Below are positions 57,102 through 63,377 of a stretch of 64,000 bases of DNA, piece by piece. The DNA comes from Brevundimonas sp. NIBR11 (lineage in GTDB: Bacteria; Pseudomonadota; Alphaproteobacteria; Caulobacterales; Caulobacteraceae): NCBI RefSeq assembly GCF_027912535.1, contig NZ_CP115465.1:3018001-3082000 (forward strand), written 5' to 3'. How positions within the stretch are numbered: position 1 is the stretch's first letter; the number at the start of each line of letters is the position of its first letter. The notes below the pieces were generated by a model. The model worked only from the letters and a program-made list of their open reading frames with translations, was not told the DNA's origin and did not search any database. The translations under genes and the position numbers were made by a program.

Positions 57102-58205
57102 TCAAAGGCCGAGCGCCGCCTTGATCACGCGCCAGTCGATGAACTTGAAGTTCTGCGTCCCCACGTCGTTGACGTCGTCCTGGACCACCACGACCCCTTC
57201 GGGGAAGGCGTCCGAGACCCGACCGCCCATCGCCGCCAGGCCGTCGGTGCCGGTCACGCCGTCAACCACGCCGTCCTCGACGACGAACCGGCCCTTGTAC
57301 TCGGGCACGCCGCTGTCGATGCGCCAGACCGGGAAGGCGCTGTCGCCCTGGCTCGACCCGATCAGATAGCGGGCCGCTCCGTCGGCGAGGATGGTCAACC
57401 CTTCCGCGTCGGCGACCAGCACGTCCTCCTCGATCGGCTGGATCAGGGTCCGCGCCTCGCCCGAGACCGGGTTCAGCCCATAGCGCCAGACGCCGACATT
57501 CTCCTCGGCCAGGTAGAGGGCGTCGGTCCCGGCGTCGGCGGCGCAGCCCTCGGAGATCGAGCCGATCTCGAAGCGGCGAACCTCGCGCGAGACCGGTTGG
57601 CCGGCGGCGTCGGCGCTCAGCACGAACTGGCGCACCTCGCCCTCATGCCCGACGAGGATGGCGTGAACCTCCTCGCCCCGGCGGCCGAAGCAGAAGCCGT
57701 AGGGCTCGACCACGTCGGTGCGGATGGCCCCCCAGGGGCGGACCCCGTTCTGGCCGGTCACGGCCGGGTCGAACAGGTAAAGGGAGACCCCCTCCTTGCC
57801 CGGCGTCCGGTCGCTGGCGCCCAGCACCACCTGCGATCTGCCCGAGACCATCAGGTCGGCGGCGTCGACATTGTTCAGCAGCCCTTCGGGCATGAATTGC
57901 AGCACCGCCCCGTCGAAGCCGTAGATATAGAGGCCCGCCTTCTTGTCGGTGCCGGCGACGAAGCCGGGGGTGGACGTTCCCATGACCACGACCGGGCGCT
58001 CGCCGATCCAGACGGCGGGATCGTCGGCCGCGTCCTCGCCGCCGCCAGTGCCGACCGACGGCGTCTCTAGCGTCGCCTGGACCCGGACGCCCGCGCCGAT
58101 CACACCCTCGCCCTCACCCTGGTAGTCGACCTCATGGGTGGCGCAGGCCGAGAGCAGCAGGGCGGCCAGCGAGACGGCGGCGAGGGTGGAGATCGGGCGG
58201 GTCAT
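57102..58205 (-). CDS. beta-propeller phytase, lipoprotein
   Basis: A 367-aa 3-phytase (BPP type). Signal MTRPISTLAAVSLAALLLSAC with lipobox LSAC, so it is lipid-anchored. Motifs of the six-bladed BPP fold: EDAADDPAVWIGER, GTDKKAGLYIYGFDG, VVEPYGFCFGR, EGCAADAGTDALYLAEENVGVWRY, GSSQGDSAFPVWRI and TGTDGLAAMGG, then FPEGVVVVQDDVND and NFKFIDWR. Calcium-binding Asp/Glu residues lie in these. It releases phosphate from phytate at the cell surface. It is divergent from a TonB-dependent receptor 246 bp away. Confidence 0.95.
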   Translation of the reverse strand: MTRPISTLAAVSLAALLLSACATHEVDYQGEGEGVIGAGVRVQATLETPSVGTGGGEDAADDPAVWIGERPVVVMGTSTPGFVAGTDKKAGLYIYGFDGAVLQFMPEGLLNNVDAADLMVSGRSQVVLGASDRTPGKEGVSLYLFDPAVTGQNGVRPWGAIRTDVVEPYGFCFGRRGEEVHAILVGHEGEVRQFVLSADAAGQPVSREVRRFEIGSISEGCAADAGTDALYLAEENVGVWRYGLNPVSGEARTLIQPIEEDVLVADAEGLTILADGAARYLIGSSQGDSAFPVWRIDSGVPEYKGRFVVEDGVVDGVTGTDGLAAMGGRVSDAFPEGVVVVQDDVNDVGTQNFKFIDWRVIKAALGL

Positions 58206-58451: not shown

Positions 58452-61292
58452 ATGAAACTGGCTCTTCTTCTCGGCGTCGCCCTGACGCCGCTTGTCTTCG
58501 CCGGCGCCGCCGCCGCCGAACTCCCGGCCATCTCCGCCGAAGCGCCCGAGGCGGGCGAAACCCTCTACGGCCGGGTCTACGGCGCCAACGGCGCGGGCCT
58601 GCCGGGCGCCGAGGTCGTCGTCGTCCAGACCGGCCGCCGCGCCGTCGCCGACGCCCAGGGCGCCTTCACCCTGACCGGCCTCGCCCCCGGCGCCGCTACT
58701 CTGGAGGTGCGCTACCTCGGCCTGCCCACGGCGACGCAAGCCGTAACCCTTGAAGCCGGCGTGGCCACCTCGGTGGAAATCCTCGTCGGCGCCGGCGGCG
58801 AAGGCGGCGACGAGATCGAGGACGTCGTCGTCACCGGCGTGATCACCGACGGCATCGCCCGCTCGCTGAACCAGCAGCGCTCCGCCTTCGGCACACTGAA
58901 CGTCCTCTCGGCCGACGCAATCGGCCGCTATCCCGACCCGAACGTCGCCGAGTCGCTGCAGCGGGTGCAAGGCATCGCCATCCAGCGCGACCAGGGCGAG
59001 GGCCGCTACATCAACGTGCGTGGCGCGCCGTCGTCCTTCACCGCCGTCTCGGTCGACGGCGTGGCCATCCCGGCCGTGTCGCCCACCACACGCGCGGTCG
59101 ATCTGGACACCCTGCCGTCCGACATCGTCTCCTCGGTCGAGGTCGCCAAGACCCTGTCGCCGAGCCAGGACGCCGACTCGATCGCCGGCGCGGTGAACAT
59201 CAATACCCGTTCGCCCTTCGACCATCGCCGCCTGGCGATCAGCGCCTACGGCGGCGGCAGCTACAACGACTACGGCGGCTCGGACACCCGCGCCGGCGCG
59301 ACGATCTCGAACGTCTTCGGTGCGGACCAGACCTTCGGCGCCCTCGTGTCGCTCAGCTATTCCGAGACCAACCGTCGGCCGGACAATGTCGAGAACGCCT
59401 GGAACTTCAACTCCACGGTCAACCGCTATGTGATCGACGAGACCCTGTTCAAGGACTACGAGACCCAGCGCACGCGTCAGGCCCTGACCGGCGCCCTGGA
59501 ATGGCGTCCGAACGACGCGACCCGCGCCTGGCTGCGCGGCTCCTACGCCCGGTTCAACGACGACGAATACCGCGACACCCTGCGCTTCACCTATTCGGAC
59601 GGCACGATCGCGGCCGGCGCGACCAATGCGGCGGCCACCTTCAACAACGCTCGCATCTACAAGGCCCTGCGTCACCGCGAGCAGAACAATGAGATCAAGA
59701 CCCTGAACGGCGGCGTCGAACAGACGTTCGAGAATGGCGCGATCCTGGACATGACGATCGCCTGGGCCGGCAGCGAGCAGACCTATCCGCACCGCGACGA
59801 GCTGGTCTATCGCTCGGGCGCCCAGACGCTCAGCTACGACACCACCGACCACTATTCGCCGACCTACGGCGCGTTCGCGTCCAGCTACTACCTGACTCCA
59901 GCCAACTTCGCCTTCCGTGAAAACACCTTCCGCTCGAACACGACGGAGCAGGAAGACACCTCGCTGAAGGCCAACCTCGAGCTGCCCAGCGTGATCGGCG
60001 ACCGCGACGTGATCTGGAAATTCGGCGGCAAGTTCAGCACTCGCGACGTCTTCGCCGACGAGGAACGCTACCGCGACCGCAGCACGACCGCTCCGGTCAA
60101 TCCGGGCGCGCTGGCCGGACTGCTGAGCGACCGTGAATCGCGCAACTACGACTACGACCTCGGCTTCAAGTTCGATCACGGCCTGGTCAGCGATTATCTC
60201 GACCAGATCCGCCTCCTGTCGACCAACGCCGCCGCGCGCCGCATCCCGCAGTCCTGGACCGCCGACTATACGGTCACCGAGGACATCCTGGCCGGCTACG
60301 GTCAGGCCCAGTTTGACATAGGCGCCACCAACGTCCTGATCGGCCTCCGCGTCGAGAAGACCGACTTCAACAGCGGCTCCTTCCTGGCCGTGGCCAGCAC
60401 CGCCGCCGGCAATGTGCAGGGCTATGTGCAGAGCCCGGTCTTCGTCCAGCGCGACCGCACGGACTGGTTCCCGAACCTGACCCTGCGCCATGCCTTCTCG
60501 GATGACCTGATCGGCCGCTTCGCCCTGACGCGCGCCATCTCGCGCCCCGACTACGTCGACGTCGCGCCGCGCATTCTAGAAACGACCGACGGCGGCCGGA
60601 CCACGGTATCGCGCGGCAATCCGAACCTGGAATCGACCCTGTCAAACAACGTCGACGCCGGACTGGAATACTACCTGCGTCCGCTCGGCGTGATCTCCGT
60701 CAACGCCTTCTACAAGGACCTGGAGGACTTCCGGTACACCCTGACCTTCGACGGTCCGTACACGACCTCGACCGGCACGGTGACCGCCAACATCACAGAG
60801 GCTCTGAACGCCCCGGAAGGTCACCTGGCCGGCGTCGAGTTCAACTGGCAGCAGACCTTCGACTTCCTGCCGGGCTGGGCTTCGGGCTTCGGCGTCTTCG
60901 CCAACTACACCCTGACGGACGCCGAGATCAAAACCGACATCTCCTACGCCGGACGCAACGCCTTCGTCCTGCCCGGCCAGTCGGACGAGATCTACAATGC
61001 GGCCCTGTTCTACGAGAACTACGGCTTCTCGGCCCGGGTCTCTTATACGCACCGGGGCGACTTCCTGGAGGCGATCAACGCCACCAACGCCGGCTTGGAC
61101 CTGTACGTCGAGGGTCGCGGCCAGCTGGACTTCACAACCAGTTACGACTTCGGAAACGGGGTGGAAGTGTTCGGCGAGGCCAAGAACCTGACCGACGAGG
61201 CAGGCGTCCGCTACTACGGCTCGCGCGAGCGGACCTACGAGTACGAGAAGTTCGGCTACAACGTCTTCATGGGCGTCCGCTTCAAGCTCTAG
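58452..61292 (+). CDS. TonB-dependent receptor with N-terminal carboxypeptidase-like domain
   Basis: A 946-aa outer-membrane receptor. Signal MKLALLLGVALTPLVFAGAAAA; a CarboxypepD_reg-like domain (about 35-110: LYGRVYGANGAGLPGAEVVVV, VADAQGAFTLTGLAPG); the TonB box/plug region begins with EDVVVTG and continues SLNQQRSAFGTLNVLSADAIGRYPDPNVAESLQRVQG to the plug; the C-terminal 22-strand barrel ends in FMGVRFKL with a terminal aromatic-Arg-Phe-x-Leu. It is of the size used for carbohydrates or large organics by Caulobacterales. The divergent phytase suggests phytate or its products, or an iron/phosphate-linked ligand. Confidence 0.95.
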   Translation: MKLALLLGVALTPLVFAGAAAAELPAISAEAPEAGETLYGRVYGANGAGLPGAEVVVVQTGRRAVADAQGAFTLTGLAPGAATLEVRYLGLPTATQAVTLEAGVATSVEILVGAGGEGGDEIEDVVVTGVITDGIARSLNQQRSAFGTLNVLSADAIGRYPDPNVAESLQRVQGIAIQRDQGEGRYINVRGAPSSFTAVSVDGVAIPAVSPTTRAVDLDTLPSDIVSSVEVAKTLSPSQDADSIAGAVNINTRSPFDHRRLAISAYGGGSYNDYGGSDTRAGATISNVFGADQTFGALVSLSYSETNRRPDNVENAWNFNSTVNRYVIDETLFKDYETQRTRQALTGALEWRPNDATRAWLRGSYARFNDDEYRDTLRFTYSDGTIAAGATNAAATFNNARIYKALRHREQNNEIKTLNGGVEQTFENGAILDMTIAWAGSEQTYPHRDELVYRSGAQTLSYDTTDHYSPTYGAFASSYYLTPANFAFRENTFRSNTTEQEDTSLKANLELPSVIGDRDVIWKFGGKFSTRDVFADEERYRDRSTTAPVNPGALAGLLSDRESRNYDYDLGFKFDHGLVSDYLDQIRLLSTNAAARRIPQSWTADYTVTEDILAGYGQAQFDIGATNVLIGLRVEKTDFNSGSFLAVASTAAGNVQGYVQSPVFVQRDRTDWFPNLTLRHAFSDDLIGRFALTRAISRPDYVDVAPRILETTDGGRTTVSRGNPNLESTLSNNVDAGLEYYLRPLGVISVNAFYKDLEDFRYTLTFDGPYTTSTGTVTANITEALNAPEGHLAGVEFNWQQTFDFLPGWASGFGVFANYTLTDAEIKTDISYAGRNAFVLPGQSDEIYNAALFYENYGFSARVSYTHRGDFLEAINATNAGLDLYVEGRGQLDFTTSYDFGNGVEVFGEAKNLTDEAGVRYYGSRERTYEYEKFGYNVFMGVRFKL

Positions 61293-61318
61293 GCCTTAGA
61301 AGCGTCTCCAAACGGGAA

Positions 61319-61346
61319 GGGCCGGGCGGCGACGTCCGGCCCTTTT
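61319..61346 (+). terminator. intrinsic terminator of the TonB receptor gene
   Basis: GGGCCGGGCG, tetraloop GCGA, CGTCCGGCCC, then TTTT; the 10-bp stem has one G-T pair and the flanking AA-TT can extend it. It starts 27 bp after the stop. Confidence 0.93.
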
Positions 61347-61496
61347 CGTTGTTCACACGGCCTTCAACAGGGATCGCGTCAATGCAACTGGACCCGCGCC
61401 GGGTCTGGCCCTACCGCCTGTCGGTGGATTTCGGCGCCGGGCTTGCAACCCTGTGAACGACAGTTCTCACGCGTGCCAAGACGGGAAAGACCGAAG

Positions 61497-63377
61497 ATGT
61501 TCATGGAAGGCGACATCGACTGGGTGCTGGTGCTGGGCGTCGTCGCCGCAGTGACATCGGTCGTCGCCGTCCTGGCCCTGGTCTTCGCCGCGACCAATCG
61601 GACGCGCCATGTCTCGACCTCGGACGAACTGGACGCCGTGTCCAGGGCGCGAGAGGCGGCCGAGACGCGACTGTATGAGACCCTCAACGCCATTCCCGTC
61701 GCCCTGGTCCAGACGGATCGCGGCGGCAAATTCGTGTTCGCCAACAGGGCGGCCCACCAGCTCATGGGTCGTCGCGACGCCGAGCTGATCGGCCTGCGCT
61801 TCCACTCCGCGACCTGGGGCATCACCTATCCCGACGGCCGGCCGGTGCCGCCGGATCTTCTGCCCAGCGCGCGCGCCCTGCGCGGTCAGACGGTCAAGGG
61901 CTTCCAGCACATCCTCGCCAACCCGGCGACGCGTCGCAAGATGCTGGTCTCGGTCACGGCCATGCCGATCGAGGACGCCCAGGGCCAGATCATCGGCTCG
62001 ACGGCGGCCATCGTCGAGACCGAAGGCCTGACCACGCCCGAAGTGATCGAGCCGGAAGTCCCCGCCGTTCGGCCCGCCGACGACCTGACGCGGCGCGTTT
62101 TCGAGGCCGCATCCAGCGCCCTTGTGGTCGTCTCCGCCCACGGCGTCGTCCGCGAGGCCAACGCCCAGGCCCTGGCCCTGTTCGGCCGCGGGCAGGACGT
62201 CATCGGCGCCGATTTCGCCGACCAGTTTCTGGGCGAGTCCGAGCGTGTCGAAGGCCGCCAGACACTGCGCGCCGCGATCAACGCCGCGCCCGGTGAGGCC
62301 GATTCGATCGTGTCCGGTCAGGGCGGAGCCAACGGCGTGACCTGGCGCATCCTGTCGCTCAGCACCCCGGGTGAGCCCGTCGACGCCCTGCTTCTGGCCG
62401 GCGATCCCGTGGCGCAGACGATGGAGATCGAAGCGGAACCTGTCGTTGCGATCGGGGCGCTCGCGGAGCCTGCTATCGACCCGAAAACCGAGGAAACGGA
62501 GGACGTCGCCCTGGTCGAGCCGATCGTCGACCTCGCGCCCCAACTCGAGGCCGCCGCCGCGCGCGAGGCTCAGCTGCAGGCGGAACTCGACGCCGCCCGC
62601 ACCCAGATCGAAACCGAACGCGCCCAGGCCGAACGGGCGGCGGAGGCCGCACGCGCCGAGGTTCTGTCCCAGGTCGAGACCGGCAATGCGGCCTCGCGTC
62701 GTCTGGAGAGAGTGGGCCGCCTGACCGGCGGCGTGGCCCAAGATTTCAACGCCCTGCTCGCGGTCATGACCAGCGCGCTCGACATGATGCTGAAGACCGC
62801 CGACGATCCCGCGCGGGTCAGACGTCTGGGTCAGGCGGCCCTGGCCGCCGGCCAGCGCGGCGAGGCCCTGACCCGTCGCCTCTCGGCCTTCTCCCAGGGC
62901 GAGGACGCTCATGCCCAGGTGCTGGACGCCGGCGTCATGCTGCGCGCCATGGAAAGCCGTCTGCGAGCCCTGGCGGGACCCGGCGTCGACCTGATGATCG
63001 AGGGACCGTCGGGCGAAGCCCAGGTGCGGGTCGATCCCGTCGGCTTCGAGGGCGCGGTGCAGGCCCTGGTCCGCAATGCGGTCGAGGCCCAGGATGGCGC
63101 CGGATCGGTCGCCGTGCGGCTGGAGGCTCTCGCGGACGGCGGGGCGCGGCTGACGGTGCGCGACACCGGTCCGGGGCTGGACGCGACGACAGCGGCGCGG
63201 GCGATGGAGCCCTTCTTCACCACCCGCGACGGGGCGGCCGGTCTGGGTCTGGCCCAGGTCCATGCCTTCGCCCGCCAGTCGGGCGGCGTCCTGACCCTGA
63301 CCGGCGCGGAAGGCGAGGGCGCGGAGGCGACCCTGACCCTGCCGGCCGCCGGGCAGCGGATTGAAAGCGCGGCCTGA
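61497..63377 (+). CDS. PAS-type histidine-kinase-like protein without phosphoacceptor His
   Basis: A 626-aa membrane protein. One N-terminal helix (about 8-33: WVLVLGVVAAVTSVVAVLALVF), a PAS domain (LYETLNAIPVALVQTDRGGKFVFANRAAHQLMG), a second PAS-like domain (VFEAASSALVVVSAHGVVREANAQALALFG), a coiled coil (about 340-400) and a kinase core. The H-box reads GRLTGGVAQDFNALLAVM, that is Gln415 where the family has His (GGVAHDFNN). The ATPase part looks intact: VRNAVEA, VRDTGPGLD, MEPFFTT, GLGLAQVHAFARQSGG. I used the ATG at 61497; one at 61503 is also possible. Confidence 0.85.
   Translation: MFMEGDIDWVLVLGVVAAVTSVVAVLALVFAATNRTRHVSTSDELDAVSRAREAAETRLYETLNAIPVALVQTDRGGKFVFANRAAHQLMGRRDAELIGLRFHSATWGITYPDGRPVPPDLLPSARALRGQTVKGFQHILANPATRRKMLVSVTAMPIEDAQGQIIGSTAAIVETEGLTTPEVIEPEVPAVRPADDLTRRVFEAASSALVVVSAHGVVREANAQALALFGRGQDVIGADFADQFLGESERVEGRQTLRAAINAAPGEADSIVSGQGGANGVTWRILSLSTPGEPVDALLLAGDPVAQTMEIEAEPVVAIGALAEPAIDPKTEETEDVALVEPIVDLAPQLEAAAAREAQLQAELDAARTQIETERAQAERAAEAARAEVLSQVETGNAASRRLERVGRLTGGVAQDFNALLAVMTSALDMMLKTADDPARVRRLGQAALAAGQRGEALTRRLSAFSQGEDAHAQVLDAGVMLRAMESRLRALAGPGVDLMIEGPSGEAQVRVDPVGFEGAVQALVRNAVEAQDGAGSVAVRLEALADGGARLTVRDTGPGLDATTAARAMEPFFTTRDGAAGLGLAQVHAFARQSGGVLTLTGAEGEGAEATLTLPAAGQRIESAA

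Follow-up and report, generated by a model that had tools for sequence, protein, structure and literature searches.

The locus analysed here raises the question of how a protein built as a histidine kinase works when the residue to be phosphorylated is missing. Histidine kinases are phosphorylated at the histidine residue of their H-box. In one protein encoded in the window, which is the whole stretch of 64,000 nucleotides of Brevundimonas sp. NIBR11 that was analysed, sequence and translation place Gln at residue 415 within GGVAQDFNALL, where His is expected. The CAA codon described in the first-pass annotation was confirmed by the sequence, and the N-box, G1, F and G2 motifs that it listed were all present. 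It had missed Ala419, a shorter stretch before the G2 box and an Ala residue in the G2 box itself. The coordinates of this gene, hereafter the Gln415 gene, of its domains and of its neighbors are given in Table 1.

Table 1. Features of the Gln415 gene and its surroundings, in window coordinates.
Feature	Position	Strand	Basis or remark
Phytase gene, divergent from the TonB-dependent receptor gene	57102-58172	-	Pfam, E 1.7e-55
TonB-dependent receptor gene, upstream	58452-61292	+	
Hairpin with A and T runs, terminator-like	61311..61350	.	Between the TonB-dependent receptor gene and the Gln415 gene
Pseudo-histidine kinase gene, 626 aa	61497..63377	+	
Probable transmembrane helix, residues 9-33	61521..61595	+	Helix in model, hydrophobic sequence; putative membrane insertion
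PAS1, residues 63-172	61683..62012	+	PAS_4 match; model partly of low confidence
PAS2, residues 195-304	62079..62408	+	Second PAS stretch (Pfam), model elements
DHp helical hairpin, residues 400-467	62694..62897	+	Model helices, dN/dS, kept in Asticcacaulis
Gln415 codon CAA, phosphoacceptor position	62739..62741	+	Sequence context RLTGGVAQDFNALL
Ala419 at position +4, Asn in hybrid kinases	62751..62753	+	
HATPase_c, residues 513-617, with N, G1 and F boxes	63033..63347	+	Pfam, model
F box, shortened stretch and AAGLGL G2 box, residues 572-585	63210..63251	+	
Small membrane protein gene, 168 aa	63440..63946	+	62-base gap to the kinase gene

Pfam searches with the Gln415 protein identified PAS domains and HATPase_c at residues 513–617 (E 7.8e-17). 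The HisKA match was marginal (E 0.05, below the cut-off), and Response_reg, the receiver domain, had no Pfam match. The ATP-binding motifs consisted of N527 in the N-box, D556, G558 and G560 in G1, F573 and F574 in the F-box and G582 and G584 in G2. Three departures from the hybrid kinases were found: Ala (QDFNA) instead of the usual Asn (HDFNN) four residues past the acceptor site, an F-to-G2 interval that is two residues shorter, and a G2 box of AAGLGL rather than GTGLGL, in which the first Gly is replaced by Ala. The motif of bifunctional kinases/phosphatases is E/DxxN/T, with Asn or Thr four residues past the acceptor. A phosphatase role through such a residue is not supported for the Gln415 protein, which has Ala419 there.

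The predicted structure contained a helix at residues 9–33, two PAS-like domains, a long helix at residues 347–434, another helix at residues 438–466 and the ATPase domain. The pLDDT values were 50–76 in the DHp blocks, under 50 in part of PAS1 and 89–95 in the ATPase domain blocks at 481–560, and fell to 58 at 571–580. Given an overall pTM of 0.34, the domain arrangement of the model was not used. By sequence, the nearest solved structure was the DHp-CA structure of CckA (5idj, E 2.1e-31), which was also fold match 10. The NifL-NifA structure 9qq6 ranked third among the fold matches, with a whole-model TM-score of 0.22.

A sequencing error or a fresh mutation could produce a single Gln at this site, and both were rejected, as Gln recurs in independent genomes. 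Among the 120 homologs listed of 917 found at E 1e-30, site 415 was Q in 74, H in 44, K in 1 and R in 1. Scanning species genomes yielded 80 loci of the gene, and a search of 131 genus genomes gave matches in 83 at E 1e-60, of which 29 loci were added; 48 of the 131 genomes had no match at this threshold. After 22 identical copies were dropped, 89 rows remained, of which 7 were fragments without the site and 82 were usable, including the paralog from the same genome and three more hybrids. Site 415 in these 82 rows was H in 46 (four of them hybrid kinases), Q in 31, N in 2 and R, T and A in 1 each. Many of the relatives may therefore be working kinases, to judge from the His present in 46 of the 82 rows. 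In the rows with DNA, Gln was encoded by CAG in 29 and CAA in 2, and His by CAC in 24 and CAT in 21. The clade holding the Gln415 protein was entirely Gln (11 of 11 rows, support 100/99). In a control family, that of the 258-kb hybrid kinase of the same genome, by comparison, all 120 matches listed of 7,929 had His at the acceptor site and Asn at +4. In the 299 genomes of the taxonomic family, the N-terminal half was found in 70 at E 1e-40, covering 5 of 22 genera. Spread by plasmids was rejected, as a plasmid collection yielded no match at E 1e-60. The MGLN01 records (RIFOXYB1_FULL_67_16), a single metagenome-assembled genome, held two distinct copies of the gene, L044 and L069, and may represent a strain mixture.

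The history of site 415 was followed on a tree of 68 rows, from whose alignment the H-box core and the linker were left out. Fourteen of the 82 rows were not included: the paralog from the same genome (which had a branch of 8.1 in a larger, 82-row tree), the hybrids L070, L071 and L076, eight Asticcacaulis rows, L064, and L044, which is truncated at a contig end. The tree carries a warning about L050 and the L045 group, whose long branches meet in it. The His/non-His label required at least 7 changes (7–7 in the 5–95% range of the bootstrap trees), or 8 losses if His stood at the root and was never regained, and 9 changes were counted when all states were considered. A loss-only model (lnL -23.316) and one that also allows regain (lnL -23.310) fitted equally well. 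Losses in Asticcacaulis and L064 would add to this count. Close pairs that differ at the site were also found: L033, which has His, is sister to L069, which has Gln, with support of 99/97, and L029/L030 (Gln) are sister to L028/L034/L073 (His), with 100/100 for the five. On the same tree, G407, R408 and D416 had no change and F417 had one. The eleven ATP-site residues (N527, D556, G558, G560, F573, F574, T576, G582, L583, G584, and L585) had no change either. The H-box is nevertheless not uniformly frozen, as R405 changed 16 times, A422 9 times and N418 6 times. Before G2, the changes numbered 2 at G579, 4 at A580 and 7 at A581. The sequences thus indicate that His was lost several separate times and that the rest of the contact surface was kept.

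The relatives varied substantially in length and domain content. Besides several PAS domains, Pfam identified HisKA, HATPase_c and a receiver in L071 from Caulobacter and L076 from an unplaced Proteobacteria metagenome genome, two hybrids with 1091 and 1114 amino acid residues, respectively, and an H-box reading HDFNN. The short Brevundimonas-type forms have about 600 residues, Ala at +4, a G2 box such as AAGLGL and two residues fewer before it, except that L050 of Peiella keeps Asn at +4. Pfam detected no receiver domain in the Gln415 protein and three short forms tested. As the Ala at +4, the shortened stretch and the Ala of G2 are, with small variations, common to the His-bearing short relatives, they probably predate the loss of His. 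Eight Asticcacaulis proteins reached the site, with Q in 5, N in 2 and A in 1. None has an N-box or a G1 motif, and all eight end at most about 10 residues past the second DHp helix, at a stop codon and not at a contig end. HATPase_c was absent from the three of them tested by Pfam. A split gene with an adjoining ATPase domain was rejected by tblastn of two domains against seven of the eight loci, L081 excepted (best E 0.49). The DHp of L077 from Asticcacaulis is nevertheless 51% identical to that of the Gln415 protein. The model of an Asticcacaulis protein was poor (pLDDT 58.5), and the arguments here do not rest on it. L077 and L082–L084 have long, variable and mostly helical stretches between their PAS domains and the DHp hairpin.

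The hybrid form is presumably ancestral, given how close it is to other hybrid kinases. The apparent route inside Caulobacteraceae would then lead from a hybrid kinase to a short kinase without receiver or +4 Asn, to a kinase that has no His but an intact ATP site, and finally to a form without an ATPase domain. The kinase appears to have been dismantled in steps, with selection keeping PAS1 and the DHp hairpin. The recurrent loss of His, the long hybrid relatives and the ATPase-less Asticcacaulis forms had all escaped the first-pass annotation, which was right about the pseudokinase itself.

Selection was assessed by dN/dS from pairwise counts (Nei-Gojobori type), whose pairs are not independent, for the 11 rows of the Gln clade and 27 rows of the His clade; L027 was omitted (contig end). 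PAS1 (residues 59–175) was the most constrained sensor part, with 0.065 in the Gln clade and 0.093 in the His clade. The respective values were 0.32 and 0.23 for PAS2, 0.10 and 0.063 for DHp, 0.048 and 0.027 for the H-box and 0.25 and 0.16 for the ATPase domain. These values suggest that the gene is maintained and that DHp, PAS2 and the ATPase domain are mildly relaxed in the Gln clade. With the histidine kinase fold kept, the acceptor missing and the gene under purifying selection, the Gln415 protein is a pseudo-histidine kinase. It is also a conserved one: Gln occupies all 11 rows of its clade, the 31 Gln rows show synonymous variation at the codon, and the eleven ATP-site residues are unchanged.

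Given the repeated loss of His from a contact surface that was otherwise kept, the Gln415 protein probably signals through contacts of its DHp, without a phosphate of its own. It would be a membrane-anchored dimer, in which PAS1 senses a cue and the resulting change travels down a coiled coil into the DHp hairpin. The hairpin would be the output, docking a response regulator or pairing, DHp to DHp, with an active hybrid kinase of the HDFN class, and this contact would alter the activity of the docked partner. As residue 415 is Gln, no autophosphorylation is expected at the usual place. In Brevundimonas, the shape of the protein is probably tuned by ATP bound in the conserved pocket. The ATP-dependent conformational change proposed earlier cannot be how the whole family works, because the ATPase domain is gone in Asticcacaulis; for the family as a whole, ATP would be dispensable. 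The sensing partner or allosteric regulator of another kinase that had been proposed remains the best reading, although no partner gene was found beside the Gln415 gene. The slight relaxation of the ATPase domain, PAS2 and DHp in the Gln clade counts against signaling through DHp contacts, as do the many relatives that still have His, and the eleven unchanging ATP-site residues count against a mere scaffold, as they would fit catalytic ATP use better.

That a protein of this kind can work through its DHp is known from DivL of Caulobacter crescentus, which favors the DHp-contact reading. DivL has the H, N, G1, F and G2 motifs with Tyr550 in place of His at the acceptor position, binds DivK~P via the docking face of its DHp and lacks kinase and phosphatase activity (PMC4211667); general remarks on DivL are also found in a review (PMC12471899). 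Similar to DivL, the Gln415 protein is a histidine kinase-like protein of Caulobacterales with a residue other than His at the acceptor position. The two differ in that the H-box reads AQDFNALL in the Gln415 protein and SYELRTPL in the DivL-like gene, and in that DivL has Tyr at the acceptor whereas the Gln415 protein has Gln and relatives that still carry His. Identity with DivL was rejected, because the residue is Gln and not Tyr and the same genome has a separate, Tyr-bearing DivL-like gene. By analogy, the best reading is that the Gln415 protein works like DivL and is not DivL. Few bacterial pseudo-histidine kinases, chiefly DivL, appeared in the portions of the literature surveyed, and the open-access titles and abstracts searched gave no Gln-bearing kinase of Brevundimonas or Asticcacaulis. 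The natural His/Gln pairs of similar sequence (L033/L069 and L028/L034/L073 vs L029/L030) offer a ready test of a histidine kinase that does not phosphorylate itself.

The CckA and HDFN-class hybrids resemble the Gln415 protein in that 5idj is the best structure by sequence and the relatives L071 and L076 are HDFNN hybrids; different from them, the Gln415 protein lacks the His, the +4 Asn and the receiver and has an altered G2 box. The Asticcacaulis form resembles a CA-frameshifted ChrS of Corynebacterium glutamicum, in which the ATPase domain is broken and DHp matters. The phenotype of this mutant needs DHp and not the acceptor His, so that a kinase can function even without its CA domain (PMC9491836). 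It is, however, a laboratory-evolved single mutant of a different kinase, not a conserved family, and no heterodimer of truncated ChrS was seen in the same study, which by analogy would argue against the pairing invoked for the Gln415 protein (PMC9491836).

The partner question was addressed in the genome of the Gln415 gene itself, where PF02518 had 49 matches at 48 places and the 47 besides the Gln415 gene were examined. By motif, we take three of the 47 to be GyrB, ParE and MutL and two to be CheA. The remaining 42 comprised 40 with His where it is expected (37 located by pattern and 3 by eye), one with Tyr (SYELRTPL) and one short HWE-like protein without His. The Tyr-bearing gene (G000:C1:2987307-2988008, match 2987694-2988008) is presumably DivL. 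The DHp of the Gln415 protein was 59% identical (40/68) to that of the 258-kb hybrid kinase, a paralog carrying a receiver domain, and 37–41% identical to those of four other HDFN kinases of the genome. At the thresholds used, 69 of the 131 genus genomes had both the Gln415-type gene and the 258-kb-type hybrid, 14 only the former, 24 only the latter and 24 neither (Fisher p 1e-4, without correction for kinship). Co-occurrence and DHp identity make this hybrid a candidate partner, as a lead; with 14 of 83 genomes lacking it at the threshold used, it is no obligate partner.

The same data bear on a rather unlikely alternative, in which the Gln415 protein and a kinase that has its His make up a heterodimer, with the ATPase domain of the former phosphorylating the His of the latter in trans. 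The own His would then not be needed, the own ATP site would be, and His would have become free to vanish again and again. No change at any of the eleven ATP-site residues on the 68-row tree, against 9 at residue 415, is as this alternative predicts, as are the DHp identity with the hybrid kinase and the co-occurrence, which exceeds chance before kinship is corrected for. However, the ATPase domain is absent from all eight Asticcacaulis relatives, the G2 box is altered and the stretch before it shortened, the candidate partner is missing in the 14 genomes, and the dN/dS of the ATPase domain is higher after the loss of His. It is just as doubtful that a lineage of such donors phosphorylated the paralogous hybrid kinase in trans and that Asticcacaulis later dropped the donor half, leaving a membrane-bound PAS-DHp docking protein.

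Less likely still is a kinase-like body that binds ADP/ATP and controls a transcription factor or some other target that is not a response regulator. NifL regulates by protein contact and shares the PAS-PAS-DHp-ATPase order with the Gln415 protein, and 9qq6 was the third fold match. Its TM-score of 0.22, however, reflects a match driven by shared domains, the Gln415 protein differs in having a probable membrane helix and a DHp of the hybrid-kinase type (59–68% identical to hybrid-kinase DHps), and its identified neighbors encode a TonB-dependent receptor, a small membrane protein and an lpd-like enzyme; no NifA-like gene was recognized among the close neighbors. Decay, with His lost under relaxed selection from a kinase of fading function and no new role, is similarly improbable. 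The many separate losses of His, the occasional K, R or T in place of Gln, the 48 genus genomes without a match and the raised dN/dS of the ATPase domain, PAS2 and DHp in the Gln clade would all be expected of it, but not the low dN/dS of PAS1 (0.065) and the H-box (0.048) in that clade, Gln in every one of its rows, or an unchanged ATP site; the way in which the rows were collected admits open frames and no broken copies. Phosphorylation of another DHp residue would also account for the unchanging ATP site, and yet we regard it as highly improbable: in an alignment of 18 members, the only His residues that are invariant or nearly so are 38, 87, 103 and 138, all before or in PAS1, and another His in DHp was rejected as the acceptor, none being conserved there.

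The small membrane protein gene downstream is probably co-transcribed with the Gln415 gene, given the 62-base gap. It is followed by a gene, mostly beyond the window, for a Pyr_redox_2/Pyr_redox_dim protein, which we take to be lpd (dihydrolipoyl dehydrogenase-like). The membrane protein had been suggested as a partner of the pseudokinase. At least 2.5 kb of downstream sequence was available for 40 His and 22 Gln copies among the 80 loci; the membrane gene followed 28 of the former and 7 of the latter, usually before the lpd-like gene, which was found downstream of 32 and 11, respectively. A Gln-specific partnership was therefore rejected, as the gene also follows His-bearing copies. Among the loci with enough upstream sequence, a match to the TonB-dependent receptor, in many cases a weak one, lay upstream at 18 of 37 with His and 16 of 23 with Gln. 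Asticcacaulis and the Caulobacter hybrid L071 have in common neighbors encoding an AAA ATPase, a proteasome-type protease and a ThiF protein, presumably hslU, hslV and moeB. L045, L056, L072 and L074 are at other loci and were grouped by sequence. Orthology is thus supported by synteny for most Brevundimonas-type rows and by sequence for the rest.

A consensus scan found no promoter and did not list the very strong hairpin at 61311–61350 among its sites. The folding energy for 61293–61360 was -36.5 kcal/mol (z -4.1), and the hairpin may end transcription from both sides. Phytase matches also occurred near many of the relatives' loci. Elsewhere in the genome, the short HWE-like ATPase protein at G000:C1:1276223-1276495, in a frame of 256 residues, lacks His where its class expects it and is a second possible pseudokinase. 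Finally, the HATPase_c match of an HDFNN kinase at G000:C1:985128-985483 is split over two frames, which may indicate a broken gene.
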